Source: a virus. From it: a stretch of DNA of 24,267 bases. Below the pieces are notes generated by a model. The model made no database searches, was not told the DNA's origin, and saw nothing but the letters and a program-made list of their open reading frames with translations. The position numbers and the translations under genes were made by a program. Positions 3,685 to 23,434 of the stretch are shown in pieces (the first letter of the stretch is position 1; every line of letters begins with the position of its first letter). Where the stretch lies: positions 1 to 24,267 of the IMG/VR virus record IMGVR_UViG_3300015371_000170. One strand, written 5' to 3'.

Positions 3685-3932
3685 TTTGATAATCCTCTCT
3701 CTCGCGTTACTCTACCATCCCTAACTCGACGCTCCCATTCCATTCTGAGAAGCGTGAGCCAAGCTACTCGTGTCTTGTTATCTGCAACACACTCCTGATA
3801 ACCCATCCCTATCAGAAACAAAGAAATGTTCCTCAGATGGTTGTTATCGAGATGCTGAATTGGGATAAGCTCTCCCTCTTTCGTCTTCCAGCAGAGCTGA
3901 CCAATTCTGTCCTCCATCAGCTCGAAGTCCAT
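3672..3932 (-). CDS. Conserved small phage protein (WKTKEGELIPI type)
   Basis: The protein has 86 residues. The segment WKTKEGELIPIQHLDNNHL followed by a hydrophobic helix and a basic tail matches a short protein type I know from many phage early regions (W-T-x-x-G-x-x-I-P-I then H-L). Its function is unknown to me. The ATG shares its A with the TAA stop of the gene upstream (TAATG at 3930-3934), a coupling typical of this cluster. No metal-binding or catalytic motif is visible. Confidence 0.65.
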   Translation of the reverse strand: MDFELMEDRIGQLCWKTKEGELIPIQHLDNNHLRNISLFLIGMGYQECVADNKTRVAWLTLLRMEWERRVRDGRVTRERGLSKWRM

Positions 3933-4144
3933 TATGATGCCTTTCTTCTCGGCTTGTAATCGTAGAAGGTCGGTTGCTCCTTGATGTGAAAAGCATCAGC
4001 TAAAATGGTCGCAACAACCCATGACTTGGAAACCCCATGAGTCCTTGCCAATGCCTCTACCTTCTCCTCGATCGAATACAGGACGGATGGAGTCAGGTGA
4101 GCACGACCACCTTTGATTGCCGGTTGCCGACGGATCTTCTTCAT
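3932..4144 (-). CDS. Ribbon-helix-helix-like DNA-binding protein (putative regulator)
   Basis: The protein has 70 residues. After a basic N-terminus, AHLTPSVLYSIEEKVEALAR plus THGVSKSWVVATILADAF has the strand-helix-turn-helix pattern of CopG/Arc-type ribbon-helix-helix proteins, including the G-V-S-x-S turn before helix 2. These form dimers that bind operators. It is the only protein here that looks like a sequence-specific regulator, so it is a candidate partner for the repeated boxes near 12.4-14.0 kb, although nothing links them directly. The leader upstream is A/C-rich, with AAGGA about 6 bases before the ATG. Confidence 0.55.
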   Translation of the reverse strand: MKKIRRQPAIKGGRAHLTPSVLYSIEEKVEALARTHGVSKSWVVATILADAFHIKEQPTFYDYKPRRKAS

Positions 4145-8639: not shown

Positions 8640-10385
8640 TTATGCAGCCCACTTCTTCAGACCCTTGACGTGCAGGGTCATCGCGAGTTCCTTGATCAGC
8701 ATCGATTCATCCCACTTGGTTTGAATATTGTCCATCGTGGAATGTGTGATGCTTCTCTTGATCTCAACCAGCTCTGTCAGGAAGTCATCAATGGTCCCCG
8801 CTGCGATCAGGTAGGTAGCATTGATCTTATCTGCAAGCTGACCGGGCCTTGGGAATCTCGCTTCGGCTTGCTCTTCATTAGCAGGATTCCATTGCCGTTC
8901 CATGATCATGCAGTCAGCACAGAACTGAAGGTTGAGACCCTCGCCTGCTGCCAACGTGCTTGCGATTAGGATTCGATGATTCCTGCCAGTCGGCCTTTCT
9001 GTAATTACCGGCTTGCCATCCTCATCGTAGGTTCGCTCTTGCGTAACTCCTTTGAACTGGTTGATGACCTCTTGCCTCTGCTGCATTGAGAGCGAAGAGA
9101 CATACAAGAGAGGCTCATCGAACGCGCCATCTTCACAAGTCTTGAGAAGCGCATTGTAGAGCATGTTCCCGGTGTCTTTGTGGTGAACGAATATCACCAG
9201 CTTTCGGTCGGTAGAGAGAAGAAACTCCTCAGCAAATTCCTGTGCCGATTCGACCTTAGCCGCACCAGTAATACGACGCATCCTCGAGAAATACCCAAGG
9301 ATGTTCGTTATGTCTTTCATGGACACTTCGTCGACTTTGTCCATGAACTCCTGAAACTCTTTGACGACCGCTTTGTATTTCTCTAGCAGGTCGCCACCAA
9401 TCTCAGCATGTCGAAACATCCGAGATATTGCAGGGAGTTCAGGAAGCACCTCGGCTCTTGTGAAGCGTTGGATGAAACCCTTTGTTTTCTCGTGAAAGGC
9501 GTTGGGATTCCGAAGTCTGTATCGGTTCCCACTTCCAATCGCAATACAGTCCCGAGCGATAAAGCCGGTTTCGGAAGGGAACATTGTCGGATTGACCATG
9601 TGGAGAATGGGAGCGTATTCTGAAGCGTCGTTCTTGATTGGCGTTCCAGAAAGACCCATAATCTTCGGTCGCTCGGTCTGTGTTCTCTGCCAAGCCGATG
9701 CAATCTTCTTGATGGCCCTTGTTCGCGAGGCATCAGGATTCTTGATTAGCTGGCATTCGTCCATGATAATCATTTTGAACTGAGAACAGATTTCGTCAGT
9801 CCATTTGATTGACTTCGCCTTGAACTTCCGACCGTTGCGTGCGAACTCCTCACCGACCAAACCGGCTTCGTTCATCTTTTCCCACTCAAGGTCAATGTCT
9901 GGACGAACCAGACGAAGAGTATCGTAGGAAATGATCACGATTGGGAAGTAGTCGAGATAGGGAAGCTGGTTTCCGTTCTCGATGATCTGAGGAATCAACC
10001 CAGTCCATCGAACGAATTCGAGCCATGTCTGATAACGAAGCCCCGATTTGCAAACGAAGAGCATCGGAGTCATTTCCTCTTCGTTCCGCTTCGTCAGGAT
10101 GGCTGAGATGACCATCTTCCCGACGCCCATCTCATGAGCCATGATGCCGTTCAGTCCGGCTTCCTCGAAGAACTTCGCGCTCTCTAGCTGATAGTGATAC
10201 GGTGTTCGTCCATCCTTTGAAACGATGATGTCTTCAAGCGGCGTTTCGATCTTGTCCTGAACCAGAGAATGGCCGCACTCAAGCATCACGAAAATCTGCT
10301 TGCCAAGCTCCTTTCGATACTTCTCGACCGCGACCTTGCCGCAGAAATTGCAGTTCTGTCTGAGTGTTGCGATTGGCTTGCTCAT
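8640..10385 (-). CDS. SNF2-family DEAD/H-box helicase/translocase with N-terminal zinc site
   Basis: This 581-residue protein has an N-terminal zinc knuckle (C12, C15, C37, H39). Two RecA-like lobes of an SNF2 ATPase follow. They carry motif I HEMGVGKM at 84-91, motif II MDECQ near 211, motif III LSGTPIKN near 250, motif V ASTLAAGEGLN near 478 and motif VI ARFPRPGQ near 513. It would use ATP to move along or remodel double-stranded DNA, probably in replication or recombination with the Sak4 and Cas4-like partners downstream. Motif I ends in Met where family members usually have Thr/Ser, and motif VI reads RFPRPGQ where R-x-x-R-x-G-Q is usual, so activity may be altered. The ATG overlaps the preceding stop as ATGA at 10382-10385. 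Confidence 0.85.
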   Translation of the reverse strand: MSKPIATLRQNCNFCGKVAVEKYRKELGKQIFVMLECGHSLVQDKIETPLEDIIVSKDGRTPYHYQLESAKFFEEAGLNGIMAHEMGVGKMVISAILTKRNEEEMTPMLFVCKSGLRYQTWLEFVRWTGLIPQIIENGNQLPYLDYFPIVIISYDTLRLVRPDIDLEWEKMNEAGLVGEEFARNGRKFKAKSIKWTDEICSQFKMIIMDECQLIKNPDASRTRAIKKIASAWQRTQTERPKIMGLSGTPIKNDASEYAPILHMVNPTMFPSETGFIARDCIAIGSGNRYRLRNPNAFHEKTKGFIQRFTRAEVLPELPAISRMFRHAEIGGDLLEKYKAVVKEFQEFMDKVDEVSMKDITNILGYFSRMRRITGAAKVESAQEFAEEFLLSTDRKLVIFVHHKDTGNMLYNALLKTCEDGAFDEPLLYVSSLSMQQRQEVINQFKGVTQERTYDEDGKPVITERPTGRNHRILIASTLAAGEGLNLQFCADCMIMERQWNPANEEQAEARFPRPGQLADKINATYLIAAGTIDDFLTELVEIKRSITHSTMDNIQTKWDESMLIKELAMTLHVKGLKKWAA

Positions 10386-11242
10386 ACCGGCAAGCCTTTC
10401 TTGACCCGCTGTGCTCTCACACCAGCGATTGCGTCATCGAGCGTTTCGAACATCCCGTTGTCCAGAAGAGCCTGCGCGCTTTTCTTAATGTCGTTCTGAA
10501 TCTTCGCAGTCGCCGTTTCCAAGCCCCGCTCGGATTTGATTCTTTCGGCGACCTTCTGGTTCTGGGCAACTGTCCAATCCTTGTCTAGTTCCTTGATGCG
10601 CGCACGGTCCTTAGTGGAATAGAGCTTCTCGACCAGACCAGCCTTGATCCCCTGTTGATGATTCCTGAGCTTCGAAATCGCTTCGTCGATGTCGTGAAAC
10701 TTCTTGATGACCTCGTCGATGGTTGCCGCGGTCACTGCGAAATTGCGCCCGTTGATGTAAACGTTGTTGAGCGATTCAGGGGCGCGCACCTCTTGAGTCT
10801 CGCTCAGGTGCTTCGTTTCCGCTCCACCGGGCCATACGACGGTTTCCACGCTGAGCAGTGTCTTGTAGTCCGGAATCGAATCAGGCGGCTGATATGGTGG
10901 AGCTTCAGCCGTGACATTCGGAGCTACAGGATGAGCCGCAGGGTCACTTGGAGGAGCTGGGAGATTCGTGTATGGAGCCTCTTTCCACCAAGTCTCCTCT
11001 TTTGGCTTTGCGGGTTGAGAAGCAGGTTCGACACTTGAGGTTTTCGGTGATTCGTCCGTTTCGGCCACCTTTTCGGATGACTTTTCGGACGAGCTGACCT
11101 CCGCATCTCCGGCAAATCTTTTCCATTCGTCTCCATCTCCATCTTTCGATTTGGTTGCGAGGAAGTCGTCGAAGCTGCCAAATTGCTGGGCCTCGCGATC
11201 TACCTCATTTACGAGTTCTTCCAATCTGTCTTTCTGTTCCAT
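10382..11242 (-). CDS. Hypothetical early protein with C-terminal shared module
   Basis: This 286-residue protein has an acidic N-terminus (1-45) and a Ser/Glu/Pro-rich disordered linker (45-130). A small folded part with VYINGRNFAVTAATIDEVIKKF (~163-185) follows, then long charged helices (190-250) and a final ~32-residue module. That module, with LLDNGM, TLDDAIAGV and KKGLPV at the very end, is repeated with 21 of 32 identities at the end of the unrelated protein at 13034-13627. The family is unknown. Position directly ahead of the helicase, coupled by ATGA, suggests a replication accessory or adaptor. The start has GGAAA about eleven bases upstream. Confidence 0.65.
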   Translation of the reverse strand: MEQKDRLEELVNEVDREAQQFGSFDDFLATKSKDGDGDEWKRFAGDAEVSSSEKSSEKVAETDESPKTSSVEPASQPAKPKEETWWKEAPYTNLPAPPSDPAAHPVAPNVTAEAPPYQPPDSIPDYKTLLSVETVVWPGGAETKHLSETQEVRAPESLNNVYINGRNFAVTAATIDEVIKKFHDIDEAISKLRNHQQGIKAGLVEKLYSTKDRARIKELDKDWTVAQNQKVAERIKSERGLETATAKIQNDIKKSAQALLDNGMFETLDDAIAGVRAQRVKKGLPV

Positions 11243-11863: not shown

Positions 11864-11892
11864 ATTGTAGCATACCCCGGCAGGTAAAGCAA
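11864..11892 (-). promoter_or_regulatory. Leftward sigma70-type promoter for the early cluster
   Basis: On the minus strand, TTGCTT (11892-11887) is followed by a 17-base spacer and TACAAT (11869-11864), with a TG one base before the -10 (extended -10). The transcript would begin near 11857, about 70 bases before the first early gene. No other good promoter is seen before that gene. Confidence 0.6.
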
Positions 11893-12100: not shown

Positions 12101-12120
12101 ACTTTCGCCTACTTTCGCCT
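12101..12120 (+). repeat. Exact 10-bp tandem repeat
   Basis: ACTTTCGCCT occurs twice in tandem, directly in front of the left 11-bp array. With the preceding GGCGA it can also form a small stem (GGCGA/TCGCC, 3-base loop). Confidence 0.8.
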
Positions 12121-12180
12121 ACCTTAAATCTTAGTCAATTCTTAGTTAAATCATAGTTAAATCATAGTTAATTCTTGGTC
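12120..12180 (+). repeat. Left 11-bp tandem array (iteron-like)
   Basis: Four clear and two degenerate units of 11 bases follow one another, with consensus WTAGTTAAWTC: TTAGTCAATTC, TTAGTTAAATC, ATAGTTAAATC and ATAGTTAATTC, flanked by partial units. One unit per helical turn would put bound proteins on one face of the DNA. The same unit recurs inverted at 12501-12555, so the pair probably marks a replication origin or a looping regulatory site. Confidence 0.75.
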
Positions 12181-12250
12181 GCCCTAGGGTATTCGAGATC
12201 TCGGTAAAGCCTTGATCCAAAAGGGCTTAGCGCATTTTACCCTTCGATCA

Positions 12251-12265
12251 TCTCTCTCTCTCTCT
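12251..12265 (+). repeat. TC dinucleotide tract
   Basis: About seven TC units lie between the left array and the AT-rich dyad. This pyrimidine-only strand bias is common near origins but is not specific. Confidence 0.7.
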
Positions 12266-12322
12266 GTCTAGGGGCATGATCCGGGATTTTGGATCGGGGT
12301 TTTGAACGGGGGTCTTTTCTCT

Positions 12323-12361
12323 CTTGTCTATAATAATATATATAAAATTAGATAAGACAAG
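12323..12361. repeat. AT-rich dyad, candidate unwinding element
   Basis: CTTGTCT (12323-12329) and AGACAAG (12355-12361) are inverted around a 25-base core that is all A/T except one G. It sits near the middle between the two inverted 11-bp arrays, as expected for the easily melted part of an origin. A TATAAT inside it lacks a -35 at normal spacing, so I do not call a promoter. Confidence 0.55.
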
Positions 12362-12383
12362 AACCAAAACCAGATACCGCAAT

Positions 12384-12394
12384 AAGTGTTCGCC
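12384..12394 (+). promoter_or_regulatory. AAGTGTTCGCC box, copy 1 (operator candidate)
   Basis: This exact 11-base sequence occurs three times in non-coding control DNA: here, inverted at 12710-12720, and at 14001-14011. Copies 1 and 3 both continue into a [C/G]GGCA sequence and are followed by an exact ATTTACAGGGGC box. A protein-binding site is likely, though the protein is unknown. Confidence 0.5.
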
Positions 12395-12500
12395 CGGCAT
12401 ACAATTATCCAATGGCCTGCCACGGAGAGAGACAGGGTGCGCGCTTAGATCAATTTTCCGCGCCGTATTTACAGGGGCGATCAATTAAACCCTCGACCCA

Positions 12501-12555
12501 GAATCGACTATGATTTAACTAAGAATCGACTAAGAATTAACCAAGATTTAACCAG
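12501..12555 (-). repeat. Right 11-bp tandem array, inverted relative to the left
   Basis: Five adjacent 11-base units (GAATCGACTAT, GATTTAACTAA, GAATCGACTAA, GAATTAACCAA, GATTTAACCAG) are the complement of the left-array consensus. GATTTAACTAA is the exact complement of the left unit at 12142-12152. The two arrays face each other across about 320 bases. Confidence 0.75.
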
Positions 12556-12941
12556 GTGAGATACGGCTCAGCTAGGGGAGGTCTGCTCGCTAGGGTGATC
12601 CCAGAAAATCGTTCGTGGCCCCTAGAAATTGATCTAAGCGTTTTGGGATCTGCTTCGGCTACCCTTGGTCTCCTCGAAAATGCGCGCGTTAGATCAATAA
12701 TTTTCGGGAGGCGAACACTTTCGATTTGTCTAGTTCGCCTCCGGTCTAGAATCCGCCTCCGGTTTATGGTCCTGGGTCTCGGCGCTCGGCGAGGTCTTCG
12801 AGCCTGCGGTATCTGGGGAGGGTGAGGTCTAGAATGAATCCTTGACTATGGTCAAAAACGGGGGGTCTCAGGCCCGAAAATTGGGAAGCTGTAAAGCATT
12901 GCAATTCAAGCATTTACGGGCGAAAAAATAATTGAAAATAA
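12556..12941. other. Non-coding control DNA between the right array and the rightward promoter
   Basis: No gene is supported here. The only open frame (12556-12825) gives Arg/Leu/Gly-rich translation without motifs. The stretch holds two of three copies of TTAGATCAAT (12628-12637 inverted, 12689-12698), the inverted AAGTGTTCGCC box, a perfect 10-bp inverted repeat at 12707-12742, and two GGTCTAGAAT sequences (12743 and 12826). Confidence 0.6.
12707..12742. repeat. Perfect 10-bp inverted repeat
   Basis: GGAGGCGAAC (12707-12716) and GTTCGCCTCC (12733-12742) could pair around a 16-base loop. No T-run follows on either strand, so it is not a standard terminator. The left arm contains most of the inverted AAGTGTTCGCC box, so it may be an operator with dyad symmetry. 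Confidence 0.65.
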
Positions 12942-12972
12942 TTGCTGCAAAACCTTGATCCTATGGTATTCT
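12942..12972 (+). promoter_or_regulatory. Possible rightward extended -10 promoter for the 13034 gene
   Basis: TG-G-TATTCT (12964-12972) is an extended -10. The best -35, TTGCTG (12942-12947), is 19 bases away, which is long. An ATTTACGGGC sequence resembling the late-promoter box lies 20 bases further upstream. The late promoter has the same ATGGTA preceding its -10. Confidence 0.4.
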
Positions 12973-13033: not shown

Positions 13034-13627
13034 ATGAGAACGATGGCAAAAAAGAACGGCGGCGGGAAAGTTAACCTCGTATCTAACGGAGCAGTGAAAA
13101 TGACTACAGAAGTAGTGGCAGAACCGAAGGCGGAAACGAAAGGCGAATTGCGCGGAACGTATGCGGCAACGGCGGTATACAACCTGAGCGCAGATGCAAT
13201 CGCAGCGGCAATCGCGGAGAAGCTGATCGCGAACGTGGGGACCACGGCGGTAACGATCAGCGCGAAGATCGCCGGAACGAAGATCGATCAGTTCGTGAAT
13301 TACGAGAAGCTGATCGCGCTTACGGCGGAAGGTCAGAAGCTTCTCGCGGGTGGCAAGATGGAACCCGCTACCGATGCGCCGGAATCCGGTAAGGATGAAC
13401 GGACAGCGGAGCAAAAGGCGAAAGGCGCCTGCGATCATTTCAATTACGGATTCGATCTTGAGGTCAAGCGCGATCTTCGCGGCAAGCTGGCGGAGATGAT
13501 CGAAGGTCCGGCGAAGGCGATCGCGAAGGCTGCTCAGGTCATGCTCGACAACGGGATGGCCGATACGCTGGATGAGGCGGTTGCAATGGTGAAGGCATCG
13601 CGCGCGAAGAAAGGACTTCCGGTCTAA
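13034..13627 (+). CDS. Unknown Ala-rich protein with C-terminal shared module
   Basis: This 197-residue protein is the only sizeable gene of the central rightward unit. The N-terminus is basic and flexible (KKNGGGKVNL). The middle is Ala/Ile/Val-rich, with TYAATAVYNLSADAIAAAIA and a VTISAKIAG strand pattern. The last 32 residues repeat the C-terminus of the early protein at 10382-11242 (LDNGM, TLD-E/D-A, KKGLPV). Codons are more GC-rich and uniform than in its neighbours, which can indicate high expression or a different origin. A start at 13043 (MAKK) is equally possible. A weak extended -10 lies upstream and an intrinsic terminator downstream, so it is transcribed separately. No function is recognised. 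Confidence 0.7.
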   Translation: MRTMAKKNGGGKVNLVSNGAVKMTTEVVAEPKAETKGELRGTYAATAVYNLSADAIAAAIAEKLIANVGTTAVTISAKIAGTKIDQFVNYEKLIALTAEGQKLLAGGKMEPATDAPESGKDERTAEQKAKGACDHFNYGFDLEVKRDLRGKLAEMIEGPAKAIAKAAQVMLDNGMADTLDEAVAMVKASRAKKGLPV

Positions 13628-20793: not shown

Positions 20794-23434
20794 GCCACTG
20801 GCTCCTAACAATTCTCCTGACCTCCTCCCTCCCGAGCTCCCTACCGGGCCGGATGAGAAGGAACATTTCTGCGACTCCGATGTCGCCAAGAATCTTGCCG
20901 ATATTATCGAGCATTTGGAGCAGCATGATCGTTTCAATCGAGACCGGCTCATCAAAAAGTGGCGGAAACAGATGTGTTATTGGGACAACATCCAATACAT
21001 CTGGTGGTCCGAGTTCGCTTTCGATTGGAGAACTCCCGAGCAGATTAAAGAGGAAGATCCGCAATCTGATATAGACCCGGCTCTCTACGCCAAAATCATA
21101 AACATCTACCGAGCTTACGGAGAGGTAATCATCGCTGCGATGTCCGCAGCCCTTCCTACCGTTCCTTTCGTCCCTGACGACGCCGAGAATCCTGACGACA
21201 TCTCTACCTCCAAGGCATACACGAAGATTGGGATGCTCGTTCAGAAGCACAACTTTGCCGAGCTTCTCTTCATGAAATCCCTCTACATTCTGTATAACCA
21301 GGGTGTAGTCTTTGGTTACAACGAGAATAGAGCTTCCGCGAAATTCGGGGTCTACGAGAATCCCGTCGTAGCGGATCACAACGTAGTCACCCGAGAGTTC
21401 TACTGTGCGAACTGCGGATATTCTCTAGGCTCCTCCGAAGTTTCCTCCATGCCGATCGGTCAGCTTCCTCCTCAGCCTCCTCCTATCGACCAAAAAGAAG
21501 AACCCCTCAATGCTGAATCTTTCGGTTCTGAAGAACCCGCTCCTGAGAATCTTCCTGTCCCCGCTGGTCCTGGCGAGATGGGCAACACTCCCGGTGCGCC
21601 ACCGCCATCCATGCCTCCCATGAATCAGCAACCAGTTGGGGTGCAGAGGTGCCCACAGTGTGGATATGAGAACCTTCCTGAGTCAGATGATTTTGAGGAG
21701 CTTGTTCCTCGGATCGTTGGTTACGAAACGACTCCGAAGAATCGCGAGTGCCTTGAAGTTTATGGTCCTCTCAATGTCAAGATTTCTCCCTGGGCGACGC
21801 GCGTAGAAGATTTACCATACCTCATTCTCGAAACTGAGGAGCATTACGCCAAGCTCCAAGACATTTACCCTGAAATCGCGGAGAAAATTCAGCCGGTAAT
21901 TGACATCGATACGTTCGATCGTTCCATGCGAACGAACATAATGTATCGAGGCGACGTAGCTACTGATCTTTGCACTACTCGGAGAGTCTGGCTTCAACCA
22001 TGGGCTTTCAACGTCCTTGGAGTAAAGAATCGAAAAGATGATATCGATGAACTTCGATCCCTTTACCCCAACGGATGCTATTGTGTCATCATAAATCGTG
22101 ACCTTGTCGTCGAGGGCATTCCCGACATTCTCCAGGACCATTGGACTCTTACAGAACATCCTCTTGCCGAGTCTCTTCACGCCGAATCTACCGGAGCGGC
22201 TGTTATTCCAATTCAGGACATGACCAATGAAGGCTGGAATCTCACGCTCGAAGGAATTGAGTTTGGTATTCCTGAACTCTACGCCGATCCCGACGTCCTT
22301 GATTTCGACTCTTACGGTAAGTCAGAAGCGCGACCTGGTCAAGTTTCTCCAGCAAAAGCTCCATCTGGTAGATCCTTGGGTGAGGGGTTCTTCGAGGCGA
22401 AAACCTCCAGCATCTCACAGGAGATTGATAAATTCCTTAATCGTTTGGAGAGGGTTGGGCAGTTTGTCTCGGGAGCACTTCCAACAGTTTTTGGAGGCTC
22501 GATTCAAGGTGGTTCAGGGACTGCACGGGAATACGAGATGTCCCGCTCACAGGCTCTACAAAGACTACAAATTACCTGGAAAATCGTCAAGGTTTGGTGG
22601 GCAAAGATGCTTGCGAAAGCTGTCCGAAGCTTCGCCATCAATATGCTCCAGGATGAGAAATACGTAGAAAAGAGAGGAAGCGTTTATATCAATGTTTGGA
22701 TTCGTAAGATTCATCTGACTGGAAAGGTTGGTGAGATCGAGCCTGACGTAAACGAAAGCTTCCCGATCTCCTGGGCACAGAAGAGGGATATGATCCTGAA
22801 TCTGTTCCAAGGTGGAAACGAAGATGTGATGGCTGTCCTTCGTCACCCAGAGAATGCCGGACTAATCGCACTTATAATCGGTGTTCCAGAACTTTTCATT
22901 CCTGGTGATGATAGCCGGAATAAACAGCTTATCGAAATCGGGGAGATGATTACTCAGGAACCGATTTCGATTCCTCCTCCTGGACCTCAAGAGGGACCTC
23001 CTCCAGATATGCAGGGTGGAATGCCTCCTCCCGGACCTCCTCCTATGATGGGACCTCCTCCCGGACCTCCTCAGCAAGGACCACCTATGCCTCCTCCCGG
23101 TCCTCCATCTCCAGGTCCGCAAGAGGGTCCGAATCAGCACGCTCCTAACGAGGCTCCTGGTGGACCTTCTCCATTTGGTCCTGAACCGGCTTTGGAATCC
23201 TCCGTGCGTATCGAGCCGACTCTTGATGATCACGAAGTAGAGATGGTCACCTGTCAAGCCTGGCTCCGCTCTGAGGTAGGATTGCAATACAAGAAGGAGA
23301 ATCCTGGGGCGTATCTCAATGTTCTGCTCCATATGCAGGCGCACCAGAAATTCGCTGCGATGAACGCGCAGGCTCAGGATCAGCAGGATCAGCAAGGTCA
23401 GGATAATCAACCTCCTCCTAAGGAGAAGAAGTAA
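20771..23434 (+). CDS. Portal protein with inserted zinc ribbon and Pro-rich tail
   Basis: This 887-residue protein carries portal features. A helical N-terminal part includes WRTPEQIKEEDP and DPALYAKIINIYRAYGEVII, and the crown/stem-like region has FEAKTSSISQEIDKFLNRLE and SGTAREYEMSRSQALQRLQ, typical of podovirus-like portals. Unusually, a split four-cysteine zinc ribbon is present: CANCGYS near 215 and CPQCGYE near 296, about 75 residues apart. A Pro-rich loop lies between the knuckles. After about residue 730 come repeated PPPGPP stretches, then a short helical end. The portal ring is the DNA gate, and the extra parts may be surface-exposed decorations. Confidence 0.85.
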   Translation: MFPPTTLEPLAPNNSPDLLPPELPTGPDEKEHFCDSDVAKNLADIIEHLEQHDRFNRDRLIKKWRKQMCYWDNIQYIWWSEFAFDWRTPEQIKEEDPQSDIDPALYAKIINIYRAYGEVIIAAMSAALPTVPFVPDDAENPDDISTSKAYTKIGMLVQKHNFAELLFMKSLYILYNQGVVFGYNENRASAKFGVYENPVVADHNVVTREFYCANCGYSLGSSEVSSMPIGQLPPQPPPIDQKEEPLNAESFGSEEPAPENLPVPAGPGEMGNTPGAPPPSMPPMNQQPVGVQRCPQCGYENLPESDDFEELVPRIVGYETTPKNRECLEVYGPLNVKISPWATRVEDLPYLILETEEHYAKLQDIYPEIAEKIQPVIDIDTFDRSMRTNIMYRGDVATDLCTTRRVWLQPWAFNVLGVKNRKDDIDELRSLYPNGCYCVIINRDLVVEGIPDILQDHWTLTEHPLAESLHAESTGAAVIPIQDMTNEGWNLTLEGIEFGIPELYADPDVLDFDSYGKSEARPGQVSPAKAPSGRSLGEGFFEAKTSSISQEIDKFLNRLERVGQFVSGALPTVFGGSIQGGSGTAREYEMSRSQALQRLQITWKIVKVWWAKMLAKAVRSFAINMLQDEKYVEKRGSVYINVWIRKIHLTGKVGEIEPDVNESFPISWAQKRDMILNLFQGGNEDVMAVLRHPENAGLIALIIGVPELFIPGDDSRNKQLIEIGEMITQEPISIPPPGPQEGPPPDMQGGMPPPGPPPMMGPPPGPPQQGPPMPPPGPPSPGPQEGPNQHAPNEAPGGPSPFGPEPALESSVRIEPTLDDHEVEMVTCQAWLRSEVGLQYKKENPGAYLNVLLHMQAHQKFAAMNAQAQDQQDQQGQDNQPPPKEKK

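Follow-up and report, generated by a model that had tools for sequence, protein, structure and literature searches.

What function is served by two mirrored rows of 11-bp units located in the gap between divergent gene blocks of an uncultured phage? The window analysed here is the whole stretch of 24,267 bases from an IMG/VR virus record and is part of a phage genome. Its leftward block encodes a Sak4-like protein, a PD-(D/E)XK exonuclease, an SNF2-type helicase and the products of many small genes, and its rightward block encodes the large terminase (TerL) and a large protein that had no family match and that we take, from gene order, to be the portal. A preliminary description of this DNA had placed a candidate replication origin between divergent gene units, a location that is borne out by the gene map: the arrays sit in the gap separating the leftward and rightward blocks. 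Neither the DNA of the region nor the portal-like protein matched any of 50,697 named phage records, and the best matches among those listed for the helicase and TerL have 27% and 37% identity, respectively. By these comparisons, the phage group is one without a close relative among the 50,697 records.

Anatomy of the arrays and the core

The main parts of the locus are the following:

12124-12178, + strand: left array of five 11-bp units (TTAAATCTTAG / TCAATTCTTAG / TTAAATCATAG / TTAAATCATAG / TTAATTCTTGG)
12498-12552, − strand: right array, again of five 11-bp units but in the opposite orientation to the left array
12316-12375, no strand: A/T-rich core and candidate DNA-unwinding element, located near the midpoint between the arrays and less stable than any other 60-mer of the window

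The description of left and right arrays of 11-base units in opposite orientation was confirmed, far beyond what shuffled sequence yields. The four-unit period-11 self-identity of the left array is 0.85, compared with 0.43 on average and 0.58 at most among 200 shuffles, none of which reaches the observed value, and the two arrays rank first and second for period 11 in the window, the next site scoring 0.50. So strict an 11-bp period is compatible with one protein per helical turn, such binding being putative. The core has a computed stability (not a measured melting value) of −1.08 kcal/mol per step, against a window mean of −1.41 with a standard deviation of 0.08. Tandem short repeats and an adjacent AT-rich stretch that computed stability predicts to melt easily, as in iteron-type origins, are both present.

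Other parts described at the same time fared unequally. The TC tract between the arrays is present at 12251-12269. The 10-bp tandem repeat before the left array also exists (ACTTTCGCCT, 2.2 copies, 12101-12122), but it is conserved in none of the ten relatives scanned and was rejected as part of the element. The CTTGTCT/AGACAAG dyad was likewise found but rejected as a conserved part, since 7% of local shuffles are as good, leaving it not clearly beyond chance, and since it is not conserved in relatives.

Conservation among related phages

Relatives were found by protein searches, and their records include the homologous gap. In clade 1 (11 records representing 10 sequence types), none of 200 shuffles matched the period-11 signal of any record, and 11 was the best or tied-best among periods 7 to 16 in 10 of the 11, the exception being the weaker array of L088. 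A matrix search with the left array recovered a second array on the opposite strand, 305-340 bases onward, in all six clade-1 records that have both sides, and no comparable same-strand copy of the left array in any of these six. For a held-out set we used as bait a cold-shock-like protein unrelated to the first baits, whose gene lies about 2.4 kb to the right of the arrays. It gave 11 new clade-2 loci reaching the gap (L111-L117 and L119-L122, about seven types). An 11-bp array is present in all 11, and two inverted arrays are present in all 10 loci with both sides; L113, which starts inside the gap, has the right array only. No array was found in L118, L123, L124, L125, L021 and L104. Of these, L125 is a distant 104-kb record and the others, which start within about 1.6 kb upstream of the match, would not be expected to extend as far as the gap. 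An array is thus carried by 17 of 17 related types (10 from clade 1 and about seven from clade 2) that are readable on at least one side, and this check of conservation found the arrays kept and their sequences largely different.

The geometry is also constant. Among the 11 records measured, 280-319 bp separate the two arrays, and within this interval the least stable 40-mer is 99-136 bp away from the inner edge of the left array and 132-151 bp away from that of the right array. The least stable 60-mer falls in the core in the window and in three of four long relatives (G003, G020 and G022), the core ranking second in the fourth (G009). The anatomy of the element, its conservation and the computed instability of its core are thus observations.

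At the sequence level, the units differ widely between phages. Those of the ten clade-1 types nevertheless share a weak core (4.99 bits, compared with a maximum of 4.38 among permuted units, 0 of 40), as if one fast-changing protein family bound units of all types. Clade-2 units match units like those of G001 only when flipped, so that the inverted order of the arrays is kept but their polarity relative to the core is not. The information is 4.46 with one polarity, 5.04 with clade 2 flipped and 5.20 with orientation left free; the free fit groups the window and G005 with clade 2, although the gain is small and the polarity uncertain. It therefore seems that array symmetry rather than direction is kept, with polarity relative to the core varying across phages, which argues against a simple model of polar loading.

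Several accessory motifs and promoter-like sites surround these parts:

12205-12231, + strand: 27-bp element (TAAAGCCTTGATCCAAAAGGGCTTAGC), with two mismatches in 21 specified bases, the best site in the whole window
12381-12404, + strand: partial palindrome (AATAAGTGTTCGCCCGGCATACAA); in relatives, palindromes resembling GTTCGNNNNCGAAC lie directly right of the core
12445-12487, no strand: two GATCAAT-type sites of the dispersed GAWCA motif group (TTAGATCAAT at 12445-12454 and GCGATCAATTA at 12477-12487)
12628-12722, no strand: three further sites of the GAWCA group (ATTGATCTAA at 12628-12637, TTAGATCAAT at 12689-12698 and GGCGAACACTT at 12710-12720)
11864-11872, − strand: extended -10 promoter-like site of the leftward unit (TGCTACAAT), outside the arrays and pointing away, with a counterpart in 6 of 6 records whose left side was scanned
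12964-12972, + strand: extended -10 promoter-like site of the rightward unit (TGGTATTCT), outside the arrays and pointing away, with a counterpart in 7 of 8 records

One or two copies of the 27-bp element lie near the arrays in many relatives, and none near those of G004, L049 and L075. Short GAACA/GATCA motifs recur in relatives; the GAWCA alignment supplies site positions only, and enrichment rests on a k-mer test in which AGTGTTCG, GGCGAACA and AATTGATC are the enriched 8-mers (GGCGAACA with 7 copies in four types, compared with 0.25 expected). A pyrimidine-rich stretch lies left of the core in most records, G018 being without one.

A probable origin and its alternatives

We consider it probable that 12124-12552, with a right flank extending to about 12720, is the phage's replication origin, where an initiator complex nucleated by the arrays would open the core, and that an origin of this kind is common to the members of an uncultured phage group with genomes of about 48 kb. 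A putative phage-encoded protein would occupy the 11-bp units at one per helical turn, and each set of five units would thereby line one face of the DNA with protein. The two mirror rows, about 300 bp apart, might then come together or strain the intervening DNA, and the A/T core midway between them would open. Phage replication proteins, including a DUF3987 primase/helicase-like protein and a family-A polymerase fused to uracil-DNA glycosylase, would assemble at the core, and forks would leave. We infer the protein binding, melting, initiation and fork direction of this scheme from the sequence and its conservation.

Such a replication gene set is encoded by the relatives, in which the DUF3987 protein matches primase/helicase families of PHROGs. 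In G009, positions 31692-37131 (L054:11692-17131) encode the DUF3987 primase/helicase-like protein and the uracil-DNA glycosylase fused to a family-A DNA polymerase, together with an N6/N4 DNA methyltransferase that carries a fused ParB-N domain. The rightward block of the same genome includes the gene of a radical SAM protein (22058-23254; L054:2058-3254), with homologs in G003 and G022.

The claim of a candidate origin is partly supported. It gains much from relatives keeping the arrangement and from the core being the least stable DNA in the window, whereas neither the dyad nor the 10-bp repeat is conserved and GC skew agrees only in part. The skew minimum coincides with the arrays in G009, is no more than about 2.5 kb from them in G022 and lies about 5 kb off in G020, and the cumulative skew of G003 and G004 agrees only if their contig ends adjoin. 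Because genes run away from the locus, the skew, although partly compatible with initiation of DNA synthesis at this site, is confounded by gene direction and cannot decide.

Which protein might read the arrays? Two proteins flank them in the window:

10382-11242, − strand: 286-aa protein, whose family lies left of the arrays beside the helicase gene in clade 1
13034-13627, + strand: 197-aa protein, the product of the first sizeable gene right of the arrays

The 286-aa protein, whose family evolves fast in clade 1, is a possible binder and, with ribbon-helix-helix proteins, one of the candidates for a cognate initiator. It had no fold or family match (predicted structure pTM 0.26), and no homolog was found in the clade-2 record G022. 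The predicted structure of the 197-aa protein has a pLDDT of 72. PDB fold searches gave no match for either protein at E <= 0.001, PDB sequence searches gave nothing convincing, and profile comparison did not show the two to be related. Three otherwise different proteins, namely these two and one encoded at 1297-1722 of G009 (L053), have similar terminal tails of about 30 residues (LLDNGMFETLDDAIAGVRAQRVKKGLPV and MLDNGMADTLDEAVAMVKASRAKKGLPV in the window pair); profile comparison did not show them to be related. Ribbon-helix-helix genes were found in G009, G003, G005, G020, G022, L076, L119 and L122 and are not clearly present in the window, G001, G002, G004, L088, L111, L112 and L116. A ribbon-helix-helix protein was therefore rejected as universal binder. 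Positions 3932-4144 of the window encode a 70-aa ribbon-helix-helix-like protein with no family match and a weak hit (E 2.3) to the relatives' model.

Alternatively, the locus might be a divergent control region in which a phage regulator uses the arrays as operators, loops the 300 bp between them and times both promoters, replication starting elsewhere. The position between divergent units, the promoter-like sites on both flanks and the ribbon-helix-helix gene encoded nearby in several records agree with this alternative; constant spacing and inverted arrays suit looping, and polarity-independent symmetry fits array pairing. However, the promoter-like sites of the window are some 250 and 410 bp beyond the outer edges of the arrays, which do not cover them, and looping leaves the least stable DNA between the arrays unexplained. 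We regard a control region as the main rival to an origin, though as unlikely.

A packaging (pac/cos) site, at which rows of sites for the terminase small subunit would flank the cut, appears quite improbable. Helical-turn spacing is compatible with a ring-shaped small subunit, and contigs G002, G004, G008, L075, L083, L088 and L113 and the G009 junction end between the arrays. These ends are not at one position, however, and C-rich and homopolymer tracts can break assemblies; the G009 record appears circular, its ends overlapping by 123 bases, many records continue through the stretch without a break, and in the window the large-terminase gene starts 6.2 kb from the arrays. The contig ends cluster in the region homologous to window positions 12180-12490, mostly near C-rich or homopolymer tracts; they are probably assembly breaks but could be physical ends.

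The period and the unit number are those of parC of plasmid R1 (PMC9426499, PMC4949242), and some relatives have ribbon-helix-helix genes, but a partition centromere is very improbable here. Clusters of 5 + 5 units of 11 bp are present, whereas direct-repeat sets near a par promoter were not found and no par or parMR genes were recognised beside the arrays; the sets are instead inverted, with about 300 bp and a melting core between them. No ParA-type ATPase was found in 6 records (a search whose control gave a signal), and StbA_N / ALP_N actin-like ATPases gave 0 matches, with controls silent or weak. A partition system acting through ParA was rejected on these searches, and one acting through an actin-like ATPase was set aside more tentatively, given those controls. 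Tyrosine and serine recombinases were not found in the records searched either, and so there is no sign of a prophage state.

An RNA stem is hardly credible even though the arms (12124-12181 and 12494-12551) show 84% complementarity across 58 nt: this match follows from one unit in two orientations and is about equal in several registers, both promoter-like sites point away, and no Rfam family matched, so that the RNA-stem reading was rejected and the case named beforehand as refuting the origin proposal is disfavoured. Equally hard to credit is a recombination or att-like site; some integrases do have arm sites in the form of short repeats that flank a core, but tyrosine recombinases were found in none of 7 records (control 14/14) and serine recombinases in none of 6 (control 10/14), a scope that covers the partial genome of the window and relatives with records of 45-49 kb, and an integrase or resolvase att site was rejected.

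Relation to known origins and significance

We class the element of the window as origin-like, and not as a member of the ORB, lambda or parC types. The nearest in plan appear to be archaeal ORB origins, in which an AT-rich unwinding region is flanked by repeats and both the repeat sequence and the neighbouring initiator gene vary (PMC4010727). The likeness lies in the AT-rich core flanked by repeats; in contrast, the window has uninterrupted rows of 11-bp units in a phage element without an assigned initiator gene. Among the phages compared, lambda-type origins seem nearest, with O-protein iterons beside an AT-rich tract (PMC7466680). Those have their 4-6 iterons in a single group next to the tract, within gene O, whereas the window has two mirrored rows of 11-bp units that are intergenic, with the core in the middle. 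In repeat length and number, the nearest is R1 parC (ParMRC), with its two sets of five 11-bp repeats (PMC9426499, PMC4949242). Set and unit counts are the same, but the sets of the window are inverted, about 300 bp apart around a core, and ParM or ParA was not found.

The main feature of the locus is its 11-bp arrays, in which it differs from the origin of satellite phage P4; no P4-type alpha protein was recognised, and the DUF3987 protein of the relatives matches primase/helicase families. P4 type I iterons are GGTGAACA octamers bound by the alpha protein. The 8-mer GGCGAACA, which is enriched near the arrays, and GCTGAACA-type motifs there resemble this octamer, any binding being putative.

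In the open-access literature, we found no paper describing such a phage origin. It is conceivable, though we hold this only tentatively, that the element represents an origin of new design, in which mirrored rows of initiator sites span a constant distance of about 300 bp with the core near the centre. Because the rows stay inverted while polarity and sequence change, symmetry would be what selection keeps. Should the locus prove to be an origin, it would supply such a map for a phage group that has no close relative among the named records. It would also be a system whose repeats drift in sequence under fixed spacing, symmetry and core position. Swaps of arrays between relatives could then reveal the protein that reads them.
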